NCBI GenBank assembly: GCA_037576195.1 | Contig: CM075101.1 | Coordinates: 10,230,001 to 10,294,000, forward strand | Reading direction: 5' to 3' | Source: Phytoseiulus persimilis | Lineage: Eukaryota > Arthropoda > Arachnida > Mesostigmata > Phytoseiidae | Length of the DNA: 64,000 nt | In this document: positions 1 to 47,100 of the stretch, in pieces | Layout of the letters: each line of letters begins with the position of its first letter | Position numbering within the stretch: the first letter of the stretch is position 1 | Notes under the pieces: generated by a model | Seen by the model: only the letters and a program-made list of their open reading frames with translations | What the model was told of the DNA's origin: nothing | Database searches by the model: none | Program-made: the position numbers and the translations under genes

Positions 1-766
1 ATGACCGAGAGGAGGGCTGAGAAAATTGAGCGCTCTGTCTTCTCGGAGGCGAAGGTGTGACAGAACGAGGAGCAAATGAGAGTGCCAGCATAGCAGCCAA
101 CTTCTCTCACAGCGTACCGGCCGAAGTATCATTGTTTGCTTATTCGGAACGTTGAAATCTTCTTAGAAGACGAAGAAAGATGGGGCCTCTCTAATCAGCG
201 CAGTCATTGAGCTAGGATTGAGGGCTCGCTTGACGGTGCTCCTGCGATGTTTGGCCGCAGGAGTCCGGGTCGTATGTTGTTCTCCTCTGCGTAATTTCTG
301 TCCTCCAGCTCGAACCAATCCTCGCGAGTCGCTCCCGGCATCTCGGACTTCGAGAAAATACTCGGACGGTCGAGATTCTTATTCGATTCCAAGACTTCAA
401 CGTGGGAATGAGGGAGTGGCTCATTCAGCACCGCAATACTCGCTGTATGAGCTCGCCGTGCGATTTTGGTACTTGATCCCAAGCTTCTTCTCCGACCTGT
501 TGAGGCAGGCGTTCGTTCCTGTGAACCATGGTCGAGATCGATTCTCTCCGTAACCTCGTGATATCCATTCGAGACACGCCAACGATCACCTATCCTGGAT
601 ATCCCCGAATCCACGGATGCCGCGGTTAGGAGCGTGCGTGTTCGCGTACGGAGAGCATAGTCATCTGAGGACAAGGAAGCGGGGAGCGATCGATCTGGGC
701 GCACAGCCTCCTTCGATTCCATCGCACTGAATCCAGAAACTATCCGAAAAACGTTGATCTCGAACT
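1..766. other. no gene recognised
   Basis: Both strands were read here. Several open frames exist, the longest about 170 codons on the minus strand near 204-722, but none resembles a known family and opposite-strand frames overlap each other, as expected by chance in DNA of balanced composition. The stretch lies downstream of the former 3' end of the minus-strand BTB-like gene. Confidence 0.5.
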
Positions 767-772
767 TTTATT
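767..772 (-). promoter_or_regulatory. poly(A) signal AATAAA, former 3' end of BTB-like gene 1
   Basis: TTTATT on the plus strand reads AATAAA on the minus strand, about 95 bases past the stop codon (865-867) of the pre-insertion reading frame of BTB-like gene 1. Its paralogue at 5619-7154 has an AATAAA at a similar distance past its own stop, which supports this as the original 3' end. Confidence 0.5.
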
Positions 773-864
773 CCATGAGTGCGGCATTTTTCCGGCAGGA
801 TTGGAGATGAGATATTCTGACGAACGACTCCGGAGTTCACGGTTTTAGATTAGTTCTCAGTAGA

Positions 865-1047
865 CTATGTAGTCCAAGGCGATAGCGAAAGCTCAGAAAC
901 GTTGGCGGATCTTACATCAATCGGTAGAAGAAATGTTCTGCACAAGCCGGGGAAACTCTCGAGCAGGTAGAGGCGAGGGCTATCGACGAGGGAGAAGCTT
1001 CCACCAGCGCTGAACAGATTAATGAAGCCTCCAGAAGATTGAAGTTC
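865..1047 (-). pseudogene. detached C-terminal coding segment of BTB-like gene 1
   Basis: If the transposon at 1056-1735 and one copy of its 8-bp target duplication are removed, the minus-strand frame of BTB-like gene 1 runs through the join without a shift, for 60 more codons and a TAG at 865-867. The peptide includes SAGGSFSLVDSPRLYLLESF, which aligns with DGGSLLLINGGLYLAGGF near the C-terminus of the intact paralogue at 5619-7154. This was therefore the original C-terminus. It is now separated from the main frame by 680 bp of transposon and would be translated only if the element were spliced out. I see no evidence of that. Confidence 0.6.
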
Positions 1048-1055
1048 GTCTAAAG

Positions 1056-1735
1056 CAGAGTTGGGCAGATTCGAATCTCCTCTGATTCGAATCAGATCGG
1101 ATCAGATGTGATTCGAATCATTTTTGATTCGAATCACGTGATTCGATAGCTTCTGTGTCGAATCATTCTGATTCGAATCATTTCTGATTCGAATCAAGTG
1201 ATTCGATGATCCTGATTCGAATCATTTTTGATTCGAACCAGAGGATTCGAATCATGTTCTGATTCGAATCCCAACTATATATGATCGGCTTAGTTTGTCA
1301 GTTTGTCCGCACATTACTTTCCAACTCTGGAGGGGTGATTCCGAGACCAATCTGAGCATTACTTTCCAACTCTGGAGGGGTGATTCCGGGCTCAATCTGA
1401 GCATTACTTCCCAACTCTGGAGGGGTGATTCCGTGACCAATCTGAGCATTACTTCCCAACTCTGGGAACAACTGGGAAGTAATGCTCAGATTGGTCTCGG
1501 AATCACCCCTCCAGCTTTTGAAAAGTATGGTCAGACTGGTCCCGGACTAAGCCGAGTATATGTAGTAAGGATTCGAATCAGAGTGATTCGAATCGTGTGA
1601 TTCGAATCAGATGATCGATCCTGATTCGACGGTTTTTGATTCGAATCACTTTTGATTCGATGTTTCTCGATTCGAATCAGGTGATTCGAATCAAAAGTGA
1701 TTCGACTCAAAGTGATTCGAATCTGCCCAACTCTG
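1056..1735. mobile_element. non-autonomous foldback hAT-like element, copy A1
   Basis: The element starts CAGAGTTGGGCAGATTCG and ends with the inverse complement. It is flanked by a perfect 8-bp direct duplication GTCTAAAG (1048-1055 and 1736-1743); 8-bp duplications are characteristic of hAT transposition. Both arms consist of many copies of the palindrome GATTCGAATC and near variants. Inside them are opposed copies of a TATATGATCGGCTTAGT-like segment, then a 45-bp minisatellite that reverses direction at about 1465, so much of the element can fold back on itself. No transposase frame is present. Copy A2 at 44363-45288 has the same plan in the other orientation. This copy lies inside a host coding sequence. 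Confidence 0.85.
1310..1515. repeat. 45-bp minisatellite core of element A1
   Basis: CCAACTCTGG recurs at 1321, 1366, 1411 and 1456, exactly 45 bases apart. After about 3.5 units the sequence turns around: the segment at about 1434-1458 is the reverse complement of about 1469-1493, giving a near-perfect stem of about 24 bp with a short loop. Because 45 is a multiple of three and the unit has no stop in some frames, the array produces spurious open reading frames that should not be called genes. Confidence 0.85.
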
Positions 1736-2944
1736 GTCTAAAGCTTCTGCATTCTGCGTCGCAATCTGGTGATGATAGAGACCGATACGATCGGAACGAG
1801 ATCGCATTTCCATTGCTGGGTCGACGAAGACACGAGAGGACAAACATAAGCTTCCCTGACAGAACCAAACTCTGCGGTTGTTCGGTTTTCGTTTCGTGAG
1901 AAAAATGGAAGAATTCCCTCTTGAGTTCGAGAATATAAGTACTGAACCTTGCATGAGTCCGATCGCAAGCAGATGGCCATCATCCTCGAAATTCATGTGT
2001 CTTATCTTATCAACGAAATCGATCACTACAACGAAACTCTCGTCGTTGATCCATTGCAGCACAGAATCACTGGGTCCATCGTCTCGCACCGCGAAGACGA
2101 GCTTTTGCCTCGTCAAAATCCGCTTGCATCCACTCAACACTCCCATACGCACTCGCTGGCCATCCAAATCTTTTCGAAAATTTTGGCTGTCCGACTTGTA
2201 GAGCACATAGGATCCATGTTTGAGGTAGAAGAAGTCCTCCATCTTGGTGCTCTCTATGCTGATGTGTTTCCCAAAGAGATTCACACATTTCAGTAGGTCT
2301 CCGTCGAGAATGACTGTTCTCATGTTCTGTGCTCCTCTAAGTGTAAACATAGGCACTGAGCGTCTGTTGAAATCGACAGGTATAGCCCGCAGGTTCAAAT
2401 CGATACCCTCACCCAGCTTTTCTTTGACTAGATTCAGCGCGTTCGACATCACATCCGGATTGATATCGCAATGCTTTGCGATCCGTGCCATCTGCTGTTT
2501 GTAGATGTCGGCTGTCCGCAAAGGACTGTTCGGAAGAAGTCGGAAGCATTGCATCACTGTCTCGCTTGACAACTCTGATGGATAGTCGCTCTCAGAAAAT
2601 CCTCCGATCTCGCAAACTGCCCCGAAAGTTTTCGACGTCAACTCTCTCAGGTGCAGTTGACCACTCACAGCGAACAGATTCAATAAATCCGGCAAACTCC
2701 GAGGGAGATTTCCCTCCGTATGTGCATTGAACAAATGGACCACCGTGCTTTGCGGGACAGTGAGCACAATGTACGAAGTGCCTTCAGCGAAATGTTTCCT
2801 CAGAACTGGCGAACCCTTCCAGACCGCTTCACCGAGGCGTACGATCTCGCCGTCGCTCGTTTGAACGGAGTTTTTGATCGATGCCTCACCAGCAGATGCC
2901 AGGTAAAGCTCGAGCTCGAAAAGGATGTCAGCTGGATTAGACAT
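1691..2944 (-). CDS. BTB/Skp1-fold protein, C-terminus replaced by transposon sequence
   Basis: Single-exon frame of 417 codons. Residues ~27-110 have the shape of a Skp1/BTB (POZ) domain, opening VQTSDGEIVRLGEAVWKGSP, which recalls the SSDGEIF start of Skp1. A helical segment follows around the motif LRTADIYKQQ, in the position of a BACK-like linker. The rest is rich in predicted beta strands. It aligns along its length with the protein at 5619-7154, so the two are paralogues. The last 14 or so codons (after EALD) are read from the hAT-like element and the stop codon lies inside it, so the original C-terminus is lost. BTB proteins of this shape often act as adaptors for Cul3 ubiquitin ligases, but that role is inference. 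The gene may still yield a shortened protein or may be dying. Confidence 0.62.
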   Translation of the reverse strand: MSNPADILFELELYLASAGEASIKNSVQTSDGEIVRLGEAVWKGSPVLRKHFAEGTSYIVLTVPQSTVVHLFNAHTEGNLPRSLPDLLNLFAVSGQLHLRELTSKTFGAVCEIGGFSESDYPSELSSETVMQCFRLLPNSPLRTADIYKQQMARIAKHCDINPDVMSNALNLVKEKLGEGIDLNLRAIPVDFNRRSVPMFTLRGAQNMRTVILDGDLLKCVNLFGKHISIESTKMEDFFYLKHGSYVLYKSDSQNFRKDLDGQRVRMGVLSGCKRILTRQKLVFAVRDDGPSDSVLQWINDESFVVVIDFVDKIRHMNFEDDGHLLAIGLMQGSVLIFSNSRGNSSIFLTKRKPNNRRVWFCQGSLCLSSRVFVDPAMEMRSRSDRIGLYHHQIATQNAEALDQSWADSNHFESNHF

Positions 2945-4864
2945 TCTTCCAGCTGACAGCGAAGGTTCTTGTGATTTTCAGCAGTCGGTGGGCGAACCAC
3001 CTTTGAACAGCGTCCCTGCAGAATCAGACGTCCGATTTACTTCCTGCGGAATCGCACTTGTTTCAGAGCATCGCGTTGCACTGTCCCAAGCAACGTTATG
3101 CGCTCCTCTGGACCCGGATCCCTGTCATCAGTTGGATAAGCAGGAGCGGAGTCTCAACTCAACAACGGAAGCCGATTTCACATCTCTTCCTTGGAAGCTT
3201 TGGTTCTCTTACGAGTTCCGTCGAATATTACCGATCGGCAATGTTCTCTAGATGAGACACATCGATCAGTTCTGAAACTTATGGACCTCAGGTTTGGCTC
3301 AATACCTCAGAGTTCAGTTACGGAGAAGTCTGATCGAGGAATTCGTCCCATGAGGGTGGACTCGAATGTTGACAAAGAGATAGTCATGACAATGTTCATT
3401 CAACTCACAAGCGAGCGTTCCTGGAGACACTAGTGGGTACTCGGTTACTCGGCCCGAGATAGAGCAGCGCCGAAAACAGCCGAAGTGCTGGTTCCAAGGC
3501 GTCAACCGGCGGCGCAGGGAGAGAGCAATACGAAGTACACAGAGAGCATGCTGTGTCCCGCCGCTGCTCATCGCGTGGTGCCCGCCGTCTCAGCCGCCCT
3601 TCTTGTATGATGGCGAGTTGACCGACCGTGTTTTTCGGTCGCTCTCAAAGAGGGGCCCAACAAACAAGTACAAAGTCGTGTATGCGGAACGCATCGGACC
3701 TGGCGAGCACCATGTCTCGGAAATAGAAACGCGCACCCAGCGGTATCCAGACGAATCTTAGGATCATCCAGGGAATCGGCAACCAATCGAGCCAACTCTC
3801 GGTTTGCCGCGCTCGAGGATTGCCAAGAGAGGCAATCACCCTCCCAGCAGCGGAGGGGGAGAGAGCGCGCCGAATCGAAATGTCAAATGACTATATGACG
3901 CATGAGATGGGCTATATCACGAGCATAGCGCGTCTTCCCCCTCTGTTGGCTGAAGACACATTGATACACCATGTGTCGCCACGATACTTCACCAGGGAAC
4001 CGAATAGTAGCGAAGAAGTTGGGGCTTTTCGCTTTTGAGTCTAGCATCGGTTGGATCGATCGCTTGAAGTCTGAACATGGACTTTTCTGCCGTGATATCT
4101 GTGGCGGAGAGGCGTCAGTCGACGAATGAATAGTTGATCGGAGCTCGCAGGATTTTCTCCCCTATCTACTCGCGTCTTTGGCCGATTCCTGAGAAAAAAA
4201 AAATACAACTTCGAGGGAACTCTCGCAAGAATGGACCTGTGGTCGCCCGTTCAGTTCATTGGAAGTCTCATTCAAAGATTCGAGAGTCGTCGGGAGCACT
4301 TCGATGAGCCGATGGAACTCCGGAAAAATTCCGGGGATTCTTTCGGATTGTCTCTCTCAGATAACATCCCTTGAGGAAATTGAGCTCGAGGGAACTCGTT
4401 CGAGAGAGACGTTTTGAATAGACAGTGAGATCCGAGAATATTGACGTAAATCTGACAAAAACCTGATACAGAACTTGACAGTGAAAAACGAGACAGAGAC
4501 ATGGGAGAGTTTTCAGAATTAAGAACCGCCCGGCGAATCCGACCCCGTCCCCGCTTGGCAGGCCGACCTGGCCTGGAGGCTCGGCAAAGACTTTTGAGCG
4601 ATCGGAGCTTGTCGACAAACTCTGGCCTCGAGGCGATGCCCGATGATTTTTCAGAGAATGAGGCTGGATTTGTCTCCGGAAGACATCAAATTCGAAAAGC
4701 AACCCTGCTCGTACCAACGCATACCCGTTGCAGCTGCTGTCGTTCCCGACTCGATAACTCAGATCTGTCATCCCAGATCTGTACGATACTCGTCGGGCCA
4801 AAGTTATGTTTCCAGCGAAAGAATGGTCCGGCCAAGTTTATTCGAAGTATCCGCCCCGTGACTC
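2945..4864. other. intergenic, no gene recognised
   Basis: This stretch separates the first BTB-like gene from a mariner relic. Short open frames occur on both strands. One minus-strand frame at 3645-3839 encodes a hydrophobic peptide, but it has no start context, partner exon or family match that I can support. Confidence 0.4.
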
Positions 4865-5618: not shown

Positions 5619-7154
5619 TCAGAACGACAACAAGAGCTCTATGAGAGAGTGACATGAGCCCTCTGTAAGAATTGTTTTCTTCACAGTGAGCGAGGGGAAG
5701 CCTCCGGCCAGATACAGGCCTCCATTAATCAACAGGAGTGAGCCCCCATCAACATGATTCACGGCGCGCAAGGCGCGAATAAACTCGCACGCGTCGCATT
5801 TGAGAAGCTGCGAAAACCTCCTTCCCAAGGCTCGTGCAGAGCAGCCACGTCCGAGAACAAGCTTCGACCGCGGGAAGACGCTCGATTCGACTGCTCGGTA
5901 GGCTTTCAGCAACCAATGCAGCTTCAGTTGCCGATCAACCGCTATTTGCTTCCTCAGCGAGCGGAATTTTTGACTCTTAAGAACCTTGACACAATATTCC
6001 ATTGTCTGCAATCGTCCGTCCCTCAACGGAATCAGGATACGATTCTCGAGCTCGTAGAACACAACCGAATCGGACTGCCGGGCGACCGCAAGAATACCGG
6101 CTTCACAATCGAAATCGACAGCTTCGATTCTGTGTCTGGTTCGTAGTTTTCGCTCAAATCTCTCGTCATCCACCCAAAGCCAAAGGGAATCCCGGTTACC
6201 TTCTCGTCGAACTGCGATTACGAGATCCAGTTTTGCCTGAACGAGCGTACAATTATTGAGAACCTCGACCGAGTCGCCTTTGTCCCTGATACTCTTGCGA
6301 TACACGCGGCCGCCCGACTCATGAAGCACATATGATCCGTATTTGAGGAAGAAAACTCTGGAATGCCCGATTGACTCGAAGTCGAAGTATTTTCCGAAAA
6401 GATTCACGTGGATCAATTTCTTCCCGTCAAACAACTCTGTGCGGAGCTCACCTCTACGTTCACGAATGACAAGCGAAACTTTCCGCGTGTCGAAACCCAA
6501 GGGAATGCCGTCCAGATCTAGCCCGAGGTATTTCTCGACCCTCTCTCTAAGCAGATTGACGACGTTCGTCATGACGTATTGATCTTTTCCGCAATGTTTG
6601 CCGATGCGTTCAAGCTGCTGTTTGTAGATATCAGCCGTCCTCAGAGGACAATCCAGAAGGACTTTGAAACATTGCATCACGGTCTCGCCGGAACACGCTA
6701 ACGGGAAGTCGAGCTCGCCGAAGGCTTCCGTCTCGCAGAGTGCTCTGAAGCATTTGGATCTCAAGGCCTCGAGTTCTAGCTGATGAGTCACAGCGAGGAG
6801 GTCCCACAGAGTGCCTGGGTCCCTCGGCAGAACCTCATTCCTGTGCGCATTGAGCAGAGCCCGCAAACTGCTTCCAGGAATACTGACCCTCAGGAACGAG
6901 GTGGATGCGGTGGAATGCCCCCTCAAAACAGGCGACGACTCCCATAGAGTCTTATCGAGTTCGACTATGATGCCGTCGCTCGCCTGAACCGAGCTTTTGG
7001 TCGAAGTTCCCAAGCCCAAGAACTCTAGCTCGGAAATTATATCATCGAGAGACTTCGGCATCTTTCCACCGCGAGACATATTCGATGGAGTATGACTCGC
7101 TTCGGGAAGTATTGAGAGACTGTGAGATGAGAGAAGTTTTCCGGTTTCCTGCAA
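5619..7154 (-). CDS. BTB/Skp1-fold protein, intact paralogue
   Basis: Uninterrupted 511-codon frame. The first Met is at 7154. Alignment with the paralogue at 1691-2944 favours a start near MSRGGK (7079) or MPKSLDD (7061), since MPKSLDDIISELE matches the other gene's MSNPADILFELE. Order of parts from the first Met: a Skp1/BTB-like domain at about residues 55-145 (VQASDGIIVELDKTLWESSP onward), a helical block with CPLRTADIYKQQ near 173-184, then a long beta-rich region including SLWLWVDDERF and VDFDCEAGILAV, which could be a propeller-like or novel fold. No introns or membrane segments are apparent. A role as a protein-interaction adaptor is plausible from the domain, but the target is unknown. 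With the neighbouring copy and the relic near 23 kb it forms a small local family. Confidence 0.75.
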   Translation of the reverse strand: MQETGKLLSSHSLSILPEASHTPSNMSRGGKMPKSLDDIISELEFLGLGTSTKSSVQASDGIIVELDKTLWESSPVLRGHSTASTSFLRVSIPGSSLRALLNAHRNEVLPRDPGTLWDLLAVTHQLELEALRSKCFRALCETEAFGELDFPLACSGETVMQCFKVLLDCPLRTADIYKQQLERIGKHCGKDQYVMTNVVNLLRERVEKYLGLDLDGIPLGFDTRKVSLVIRERRGELRTELFDGKKLIHVNLFGKYFDFESIGHSRVFFLKYGSYVLHESGGRVYRKSIRDKGDSVEVLNNCTLVQAKLDLVIAVRREGNRDSLWLWVDDERFERKLRTRHRIEAVDFDCEAGILAVARQSDSVVFYELENRILIPLRDGRLQTMEYCVKVLKSQKFRSLRKQIAVDRQLKLHWLLKAYRAVESSVFPRSKLVLGRGCSARALGRRFSQLLKCDACEFIRALRAVNHVDGGSLLLINGGLYLAGGFPSLTVKKTILTEGSCHSLIELLLSF

Positions 7155-23019: not shown

Positions 23020-23575
23020 TAGTTTGTTGTTCCAGATATCGGCTGTTCGAAGGGCATCGCTTGACGGAATATCGGAACACTCAAGAATGGTTTCTGAGGA
23101 ACTTCCAGGATGTGGATGAAATTTTTCATCCCGCAGATAGCATCCGCATATTCGGGACATGTTTCGAGACACAAGGATCTTGACGAACGTATCGTCACCT
23201 TCCCGGGAACGGGTGCAAGTAACTGATGATAGGAGGGAATATCTACTGTTCTATCATAGGCTCAATATGATTCTTCTGATTCCAATTTCAATAGTTTTGC
23301 CTCCTCAGATCACTTCCGTTATCGTTCTCAGGTTAACATGGTGCTCGGCTCCTCCTCTGATCTTAACGTCTCGTCAAGGCGTGAGCCTAGCGCGGTGGTT
23401 CCTATTCAGTGTCTCCACTCCCGCCGCATCCCTGAACAATACGTGCTGCACTTTCTGGAAGCCCACACTCAGAGAAAAAACGTGTTGAGGGACGGGTCGC
23501 ACTCATGCGGCCTGATACATGCCGGATTGCTTCATCGAGACTCACCATCTCGCCGGCACTGCTTTCCACGGCGTT
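23020..23575 (-). pseudogene. decayed third member of the BTB/Skp1-like family
   Basis: Two separated minus-strand stretches match the paralogues at 1.7-2.9 and 5.6-7.2 kb. Around 23572-23450 the peptide SSAGEMVSLDEAI parallels TSDGEIVRLGEAV of the BTB-like domain. Around 23103-23023 SSETILECSDIPSSDALRTA continues into DIWNNKL, paralleling SSETVMQCFRLLPNSPLRTA and DIYKQQM. The interval between them is about 170 bases longer than in the intact genes and carries stops, and nothing recognisable follows downstream. The gene is broken and old, and shows that the family was larger. Confidence 0.6.
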
Positions 23576-44132: not shown

Positions 44133-47100
44133 ATGAGCAAGTACAACACATACAGCCCCAGATTGATCGCCTTGATGCACTCTCTGCTGGTATTCGTCCA
44201 TAAAACTCTTCTGATCTTGATCATTGTATACTGCGCCTTCATCTGGATGCTATCACCCAACAAAGTTGTAGCTCTCGCTTTGGTAAGTGCTGGTAGAACT
44301 ATCTTCCTCGCTCGTCGCAAAGTTGGATGGAATTTATATATTTATACATATATACTTTATATCAGAGTTGGGCAGATTCGAATCACTTTGATTCGAATCA
44401 CTTTTGATTCGAATCAAGTTGATTCGAATCACCTGATTCGAATCAAGAAACATCGAATCAAAAGTGATTCGAATCAAAAACCGTCGAATCAGGCTGATTC
44501 GAATCAAAAGTGATTCGAATCATTTTGATTCGAATCAGGATGATTCGAATCACATCTGATCCGATCTGATTCGAATCCAATGATTCGAATCAGAAGAGAT
44601 TCGAATCACACGATTCGAATCACTCTGATTCGAATCAGAAAATGACTCGAATCAAAATTTGATTCGAATAATTTTCTGGTTCGAATCCTTACTACATATA
44701 ATCGGCTTAGTCGGGGACCAGTCTGACCATACTTTTCAAAAGCTGGAGGGGTGATTCCGAGACCAATCTGAGCATTACTTCCATACTCTGGAGGGGGTGA
44801 TCCTTCAGAGTTGGAAAGTAATGCTCAGATTGGTCTCGGAATCACCCCTCCAGAGTTGGAAAGTAATGCTCAGATTGGTCTCGGAATCACCCCTCCAGAG
44901 TTGGAAAGTAATGCTCAGATTGGTCTCGGAATCACCCCTCCAGAGTTGGAAAGTAATGCTCAGATTGGTCTCGGAATCACCCCTCCAGAGTTGGAAAGTA
45001 ATGTGCGGACAAACTGACAAACTAAGCCGATCATATACAGTAGGGATTCGAATCAGAAAATGATTCGAATCAGCATCATCGAATCACTTGATTCGAACCA
45101 GAAATGATTCGAATCAGAATGATTCGACTCAGAAGCTATCGAATCACGTGATTCGAATCGAAAGTGATTCGAATCATTTTGATTCGAATCACATCTGATC
45201 CGATCTGATTCGAATTCAATGATTCGAATCAGAAGAGATTCGAATCAAAATGATTCGAATCAAAATGATTCGAATCTGCCCAACTCTGCTTTATATATAT
45301 ATCACGGATGCTGCGAGTGATTTTGCTCAAGAAGTTTTATCTCTTGGGAACTGTCTGACTCGCCTCTCCCGTAATCGCAGATATTTTGCACCACAACCTT
45401 GCCGCTCTTCCTCGTTGCGTGCATTTCCAATGGTCTTGCATTTGTAGCGCTTAAGCACGAGGAGGTTTTCCAGTCAGATTTTCTCTGTGTACTCGTGAAG
45501 CGCCTCTTCGCGTTGTCGGTCGTGCTTTATGGAAAACTCCTACACGGTAAGGAATAAGACGGCACATTTCCTAATAGTTCAATTGACCAAGGAACTAAGC
45601 CTTGAGCAGATTGATACAGTTCCGATTGAGCAGCTTCTCGAGTGGACCCACCCAGGTTACGAGATCTTTGGAGAAGATGAACTTCCGGAAACGACTGGAG
45701 CACTGTTGGTGTACTATCACGCGTTGTTACCGTTGGATTGCTTGTATCTAGTGAGTGAATCATACTTGAAAGGACGTAGACAACTGAGCGGGATCATGCA
45801 CCGGCTAGTGATGAAGCAAATCCCTTGCTTGAGTAAGGTAAGCTCCTGAGCATATCGGAAACCCTAGAATGCTTCATTCCCATTGCCTTCCGTCGGGAGA
45901 ACGCTCTCGCACCCTATTGCTCCTCTTGACACTTCTGTTCCAGCTTTTCGATTTCCATGGCGATAGAGATCGCCTCGTCAAGGATCTCAAACAGGGTCAA
46001 CTGTGCTCAGTGGCCCCGGGAGGTGGCCTTGAGGGAGCGTTCAGCGAGAACTATGAGTGAGTCATTCAATCTATAAACCTTCTTCACGAACGAGCTCTCA
46101 TCCATCCGAGCAAATTCATCTCAAACGATGCGCCTTCATGGTCGTTCGTCCATCGGCTGCTTCAGCTAGCCCTCTGAGTCTCTTCTTGATAGATGTGGGG
46201 ATGTAACAGCATGATTCTACGAGCCACAGAAAGGCACGCACATAATTCGTTCATGCTCGCGTTGCACGGATCGAAAAAGTAAGGGAAATATATTTCAAAC
46301 GCTCAACTCAGCTAAGGGTGAGAGCGGACCCCGATAAGAGAATCCGATTGCACGTGGCTCCCGTGGACGAATCTTGAACAGGTGGCGTCAACTTCCATCA
46401 ATTGGCCGCTGGCGTGGCTGATTCCGCGTGACCGAAGTCCCAATTAGAGCGAGCACCCCATCCGGGACGACGAACCGTTTTGAGCGAAGGCTACATTAGA
46501 GCGGAAGCCAACAGCGGCTGTGGTACTGGGGCTCGCGCCGGATTGGGGTCCTGGCAGCTTTCGGTGGCAATCTTGACTAGAAAAGGGTTTTGGCCCTCGT
46601 TTCTTGAGGCTCTCGTGGACAAAGTGAATGATCAGGATGAGGTGCAATCGCGCCGATCAACTCTCCGCTCGAATAAGCACTGCTTGCGGCATCGACGGAA
46701 ACCTACATGCTCCGAGTTCAATTGTTTGAGGGAATTCATGTCATCGAGCGCTACCGATGCCGAGCGAACGATGAGCAGACTATCGACGCCGTTCGCTACG
46801 CTCGCGGGCCTTTCCGGTTCTCGGTGGTCGGTGGGTTCCAATTGGCAACAACGGCGGAGACGCATAGAAAAATAGTTGCCAGCGATGAGAGGTCGCCCTC
46901 TGGTGGAGTCCAGCGGCATACTTGTTTTGCACCCTGAAATCACGCGGTCCTGCACTCCTGCCTGGCTCAACGTGGGAGCTATATATTCCAATGGAACGAA
47001 GTGGAATAAGTTCGAGCCATACCAGTGTCTCGAGCGCCACTGCTGTCCGCTCTGATCAGGCCCCCGCTACAATCGGGCTTCCGCTGAAATCGGGCTCCCG

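Follow-up and report, generated by a model that had tools for sequence, protein, structure and literature searches.

One of three tandem genes, probably of the BTB-BACK-propeller type, has very probably been truncated by the recent transposition of a non-autonomous hAT-like foldback element. The gene lies in a stretch of 64,000 nucleotides from Phytoseiulus persimilis, referred to here as the window (Table 1). The element would have entered one member of the array at about codon 401, creating an 8-bp duplication; this duplication, and the family to which the element belongs, argue for transposition. A first-pass annotation had proposed that a foldback transposon truncated the gene and left its prior state readable. 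At the level of sequence, the proposal was supported by the duplication, the ends of the element, the reading frame and an adjacent paralogue (L030).

Table 1. Positions of features in the window
Feature	Positions	Strand	Remarks
Severed 3' coding end	865..1047	-	60 codons + TAG (865-867); matches the L030 C-terminus
AATAAA 3' of the severed end	767..772	-
Target-site duplication GTCTAAAG, left copy	1048..1055	.	reads CTTTAGAC on the gene strand
Non-autonomous hAT-like foldback element	1056..1735	.	680 bp; 22-bp perfect terminal inverted repeats
Tandem 45-bp units, core of the element	1312..1465	.	unit also forms arrays at other genomic sites
Target-site duplication GTCTAAAG, right copy	1736..1743	.
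Truncated frame as it stands	1691..2944	-	417 aa, final 14 residues element-coded; TGA 1691-1693
Tandem paralogue named by the first-pass annotation	5622..7079	-	486 aa; 41% identical over residues 6-338

The interrupted frame

The element was placed within the coding frame, between perfect copies of the duplication, at the same coordinates as previously given. On the minus strand, the frame opening with the ATG at 2944 reached codon 403 before passing into the element, where exactly 14 residues preceded the stop codon, compared with an earlier estimate of about 14. When the flanks were joined by a script, leaving out the element and one copy of the duplication, 463 codons were open as far as the TAG, and so the expected continuation of 60 codons to a stop at 865 was recovered. 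The AATAAA previously reported at 767 was found at 772-767; it was the sole AATAAA or ATTAAA on the minus strand of positions 701-3000, and lay outside the element.

Similarity between the severed end and the C-terminus of a paralogue was upheld, although not by the paralogue that had been named. Against the gene at 5622-7079 the severed end produced a Smith-Waterman score of 38, which was equalled in 13 of 2000 shuffles; the last 62 residues were matched by BLASTP with E = 0.062, and the whole-protein BLASTP alignment ended at residue 338. This marginal similarity was too weak as proof of the lost end, and L030 was used in its place. Here the Smith-Waterman score was 110, with none of 2000 shuffles as high, and BLASTP aligned 49 residues at 51% identity (E = 5.7e-12). 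On the basis of this tandem paralogue, the pre-insertion frame is well supported. Neither an empty site nor an orthologue was present in the single genome searched, where the next match after the gene itself was only 66% identical.

Another reading, considered very improbable, is that the element is spliced out, with a donor GT in the end of the element and an acceptor AG in the left duplication (CTTTAG), to leave a protein of 465 aa, two residues longer than the original. Removal of this 682-nt intron (1731-1050) would keep the frame and let translation run on to the original end, and its acceptor scored 5.67; against this, the donor GTTGGG scored -0.8, both values deriving from approximate matrices that were not fitted to this genome. 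Six further frame-restoring pairs had both scores at 2 or above, but used donors deep in the gene and left 79-352 residues. Rescue of the frame by splicing was rejected because the donor was poor. A fainter chance still is that the insertion arose very recently and is segregating, and that the duplication acceptor and the weak donor in the hAT end allow some transcripts to lose the element in frame, such that it is becoming an intron.

The element and its family

The element, 680 bp in all, contains inverted pairs of 81 and 49 bp, and its long, inverted and internally repetitive arms are of foldback type. A genome search with the element listed 189 matches (40 scored out of 1514 candidates), while its exact 22-base end occurred 105 times in the genome and the reversed control never. 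The loci examined comprised the 28 best-scoring in that search and 19 taken from the list of exact ends; since most of these 19 were chosen because both ends were exact, the sample is biased towards intact ends. One left and one right end, following the pattern of the script, were found at 45 of these 47 loci. The two omitted were L009 and L022, where the sequence retrieved contained no left end; L022 and L069 are one copy, counted as L069.

Perfect 8-bp duplications flanked 42 of the 45 two-ended copies, with mismatches at 4 of 360 positions, and because of this the chance origin of the duplication in the window was excluded. The non-redundant perfect sites numbered 41; T at the second position and A at the seventh occurred together in 24 of them, and either or both in all 41; L027 repeats L026 and was dropped from this count only. 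Duplications of 8 bp and ends 10-25 bp long are described for hAT elements (PMC3942097), and the target pattern nTnnnnAn for Hermes, a hAT transposase (PMC10368747). The family displayed the same length of duplication and the same target preference, and the perfect 22-bp inverted repeats of the window copy fall within that range. The duplications and target pattern of the 45 copies therefore support assignment to a young, non-autonomous, hAT-like family and, combined with the inverted repetitive arms, agree with the hAT-like foldback identity originally suggested.

Several copies were noted for their positions. A second member occurred within the window at 44363-45288 (926 bp), with the perfect duplication CTTTATAT. 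L026 (C3:23541137) and L027 (C119:27328) represented one insertion with matching flanks, the first on a contig of chromosome size and the second on one of 40 kb; these may be an unmerged haplotype or a duplication. Two copies, L096 (C3:16816505-16817626) and L098 (C3:30350411-30351300), sat in retrotransposon frames, one of these with a Pao peptidase domain and the other with integrase and more distant reverse transcriptase domains.

Age of the insertion

Copies of the element varied mostly through repeat-number indels in the arms, while the non-repetitive cores were near-identical in most. Core alignments included 44 of the 45 copies on the right and 40 on the left. The right core of the window copy (about 116 bp) was identical to those of the five nearest copies listed (L002, L003, L004, L006 and L007), as was its left core (49 bp) to those of the five nearest listed on that side (L003, L005, L008, L074 and L075). 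Right cores had a mean distance of 0.094, a figure that takes in L067, L070, L071 and L086, in which the core is missing or misaligned. The identity of 73-87% across the 20 best matches after the element itself was rejected as a sign of age, given the near-identity of the non-repetitive cores and because copies differ mostly by indels in repeat number. Gene conversion among copies could have produced identity of the cores; however, the perfect duplications are independent of core identity, and speak against great age. Judged by its lack of divergence, then, the insertion is young, and it may be polymorphic.

A candidate source of transposase

The same genome contains another young hAT, whose frame encodes 647 aa and was located at C3:12964062; it is represented by L102 (C3:12962800-12967000) and L103 (C3:17508000-17512200). 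These were 99.5% identical over 2451 bp, and each was situated between equal 8-bp sequences. The ends of this hAT (CAGGGGTGGGCA / CAGAGGTGGGCA) are similar, not identical, to those of the foldback element; across the outer 12 bases, 10 are equal at the left end and 11 at the right. On this resemblance, the 647-aa hAT is a candidate mobiliser of the foldback element. No transposase-bearing relative with identical ends was seen among 30 hAT-domain matches fetched, out of 145 listed. At 27 of these 30, foldback-like ends were absent from the 1.5-kb flanks, and an end-like 12-mer occurred at the other three, with two mismatches each. An autonomous partner at C3:23465080 was rejected; the end observed there was part of a copy of 154 bp, and the neighbouring frames that resemble transposase were bounded by other ends, CAGGGGTGGGCA and TTTGCCCACCTCTG.

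The tandem array and its predicted fold

A whole-genome search with the interrupted gene listed eight matches, the gene itself included, and L030 (C1:10227333-10228391) was the next best. L030 has an open frame of 461 aa, 66% identical to the window gene, and starts 1.6 kb to the left of the window. Because it is adjacent and on the same strand, L030 was taken to form a tandem array of three with the window gene and the paralogue at 5622-7079. Elsewhere in the window, a weak match to the gene family was observed on the minus strand at 23020-23175 (30.8% over 52 residues, E = 0.013).

The 45-bp unit at the core of the element was also observed near L030, where at least seven tandem units lay at L030:2821-3150 (C1:10228653-10228982), starting some 260 bp upstream of where the gene begins. 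GATTCGAATC was absent from the whole locus holding this array. The array matched 185 places, itself included (40 scored out of 957 candidates), and at least one of these lay in a copy of the element.

The description of the gene as 'BTB-like' fared unevenly. No Pfam BTB hit was obtained at E up to 1 for either the window gene or the paralogue at 5622-7079; two propeller profiles fell below cut-offs (E = 0.0078 and 0.012), and there were no BTB or Kelch hits. The predicted fold of L030 was more favourable. The AlphaFold2 model, built on an alignment of seven family members from this genome, had a mean pLDDT of 72, with a helical N-terminal half and a beta C-terminal half; its last beta-strand was at 450-458, and segments between 341 and 446 had pLDDT below 50. 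When the model was compared with the PDB by Foldseek, the 22 best of 1492 matches were KBTBD4, KBTBD2 or KLHL22 entries (E from 1.4e-10 to 5.7e-7, query-normalised TM-scores 0.23-0.37, identity 8-14%). From the entry titles, the matched chains appear to be these proteins themselves. The L030 model resembles BTB-BACK-Kelch proteins in its best structural matches and in the order of helical and beta halves, but Pfam gave no BTB or Kelch hit, and identity in those 22 matches was just 8-14%. As a guess from this model, the most likely type is BTB-BACK-propeller.

Consequences for the gene

If translation were to read into the element, the protein would gain 14 foreign residues and then stop, without the final 60 of its 463 residues. 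The lost end matches the C-terminus of L030, which in the model finishes with the strand at 450-458. As this last strand lies in the lost part, the truncated protein probably cannot close its sheet or propeller and is probably impaired. Conversely, residues 339-400, which precede the insertion and are coding, were less like L030 (19/55 identical) than the severed end itself (29/60). This half of the protein is therefore under little constraint, and losing its end may have a mild effect. Additionally, the adjacent tandem copy, with its open frame, could buffer the loss.

The severed 60 codons are probably still open because little time has elapsed, to judge from the low divergence of the element. 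For the same reason, the open frames on either side are uninformative on present function. The intact frame of 400 codons was accordingly set aside as a sign of such function, only 0.14-0.93 nonsense changes being expected at 0.3-2% divergence. Relaxed selection after the insertion, as read from dN/dS of residues 401-463, was also rejected; residues 339-400 are more diverged, and yet still coding.

An insertion that came as a passenger into a pseudogene, with decay of the gene already under way, is unlikely. A nearby tandem copy could have rendered the gene redundant, and dN exceeded dS in the severed end (0.46 and 0.385 respectively); however, the 400 codons before and 60 codons after the insertion were open, and over residues 1-338 dN was 0.19 and dS 0.41 relative to L030. 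Nor did the window gene differ significantly from L030 in number of changes across residues 1-400, with either L031 (29 versus 21, p = 0.32) or L032 (17 versus 28, p = 0.14) as outgroup. These comparisons showed no sign of decay in the gene before the insertion.

The RNA of the element on the gene strand was predicted to fold at -366.8 kcal/mol, compared with a mean of -179.5 for shuffled sequences (z = -26.8, 0/20 shuffles as good), and a transcript, unless ended otherwise, would carry this hairpin. Transcription through the element might then supply a long hairpin RNA to a small-RNA pathway that silences the host gene together with the related genes of the array. Such folding is expected of any foldback element, and a silencing role was thought very unlikely; simple truncation is preferred.

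Comparison with known systems

As a type of mutation, the shortening of a coding frame by a non-autonomous foldback element, here hAT-like, is ordinary and known, and taken alone the case opens no long-standing question. It is a fresh and unusually readable example, a clean disruption of coding sequence by a young non-autonomous hAT-like family in which the ends, target sites and prior frame are all legible. The element itself joins hAT-type ends to a foldback structure, in copies distinguished mainly by how many repeats they hold, and its 45-bp unit recurs in arrays at other places in the genome. No title described a hAT foldback element among the literature matches listed, which in two of the searches were 20 of 34 and 15 of 37.

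The closest parallels lay on two sides. With non-autonomous hAT elements such as the MITE-like BuT2 (PMC3942097), the family shares 8-bp duplications, short terminal inverted repeats, the lack of a transposase and recent spread, and the target pattern nTnnnnAn of Hermes (PMC10368747) is common to it also. It differs from elements of the BuT2 type in its long, internally repetitive foldback arms, the copies spanning 60-1441 bp (n = 45). Such arms, and structurally varied copies, are instead shared with the foldbacks Galileo (PMC3573991) and Tetris (PMC4079207); the repeats of Tetris, in Drosophila, also form satellite-like arrays, as does the 45-bp unit here. Galileo, however, is described as belonging to the P superfamily (PMC3573991), whereas the ends and target sites of the window element point to hAT.
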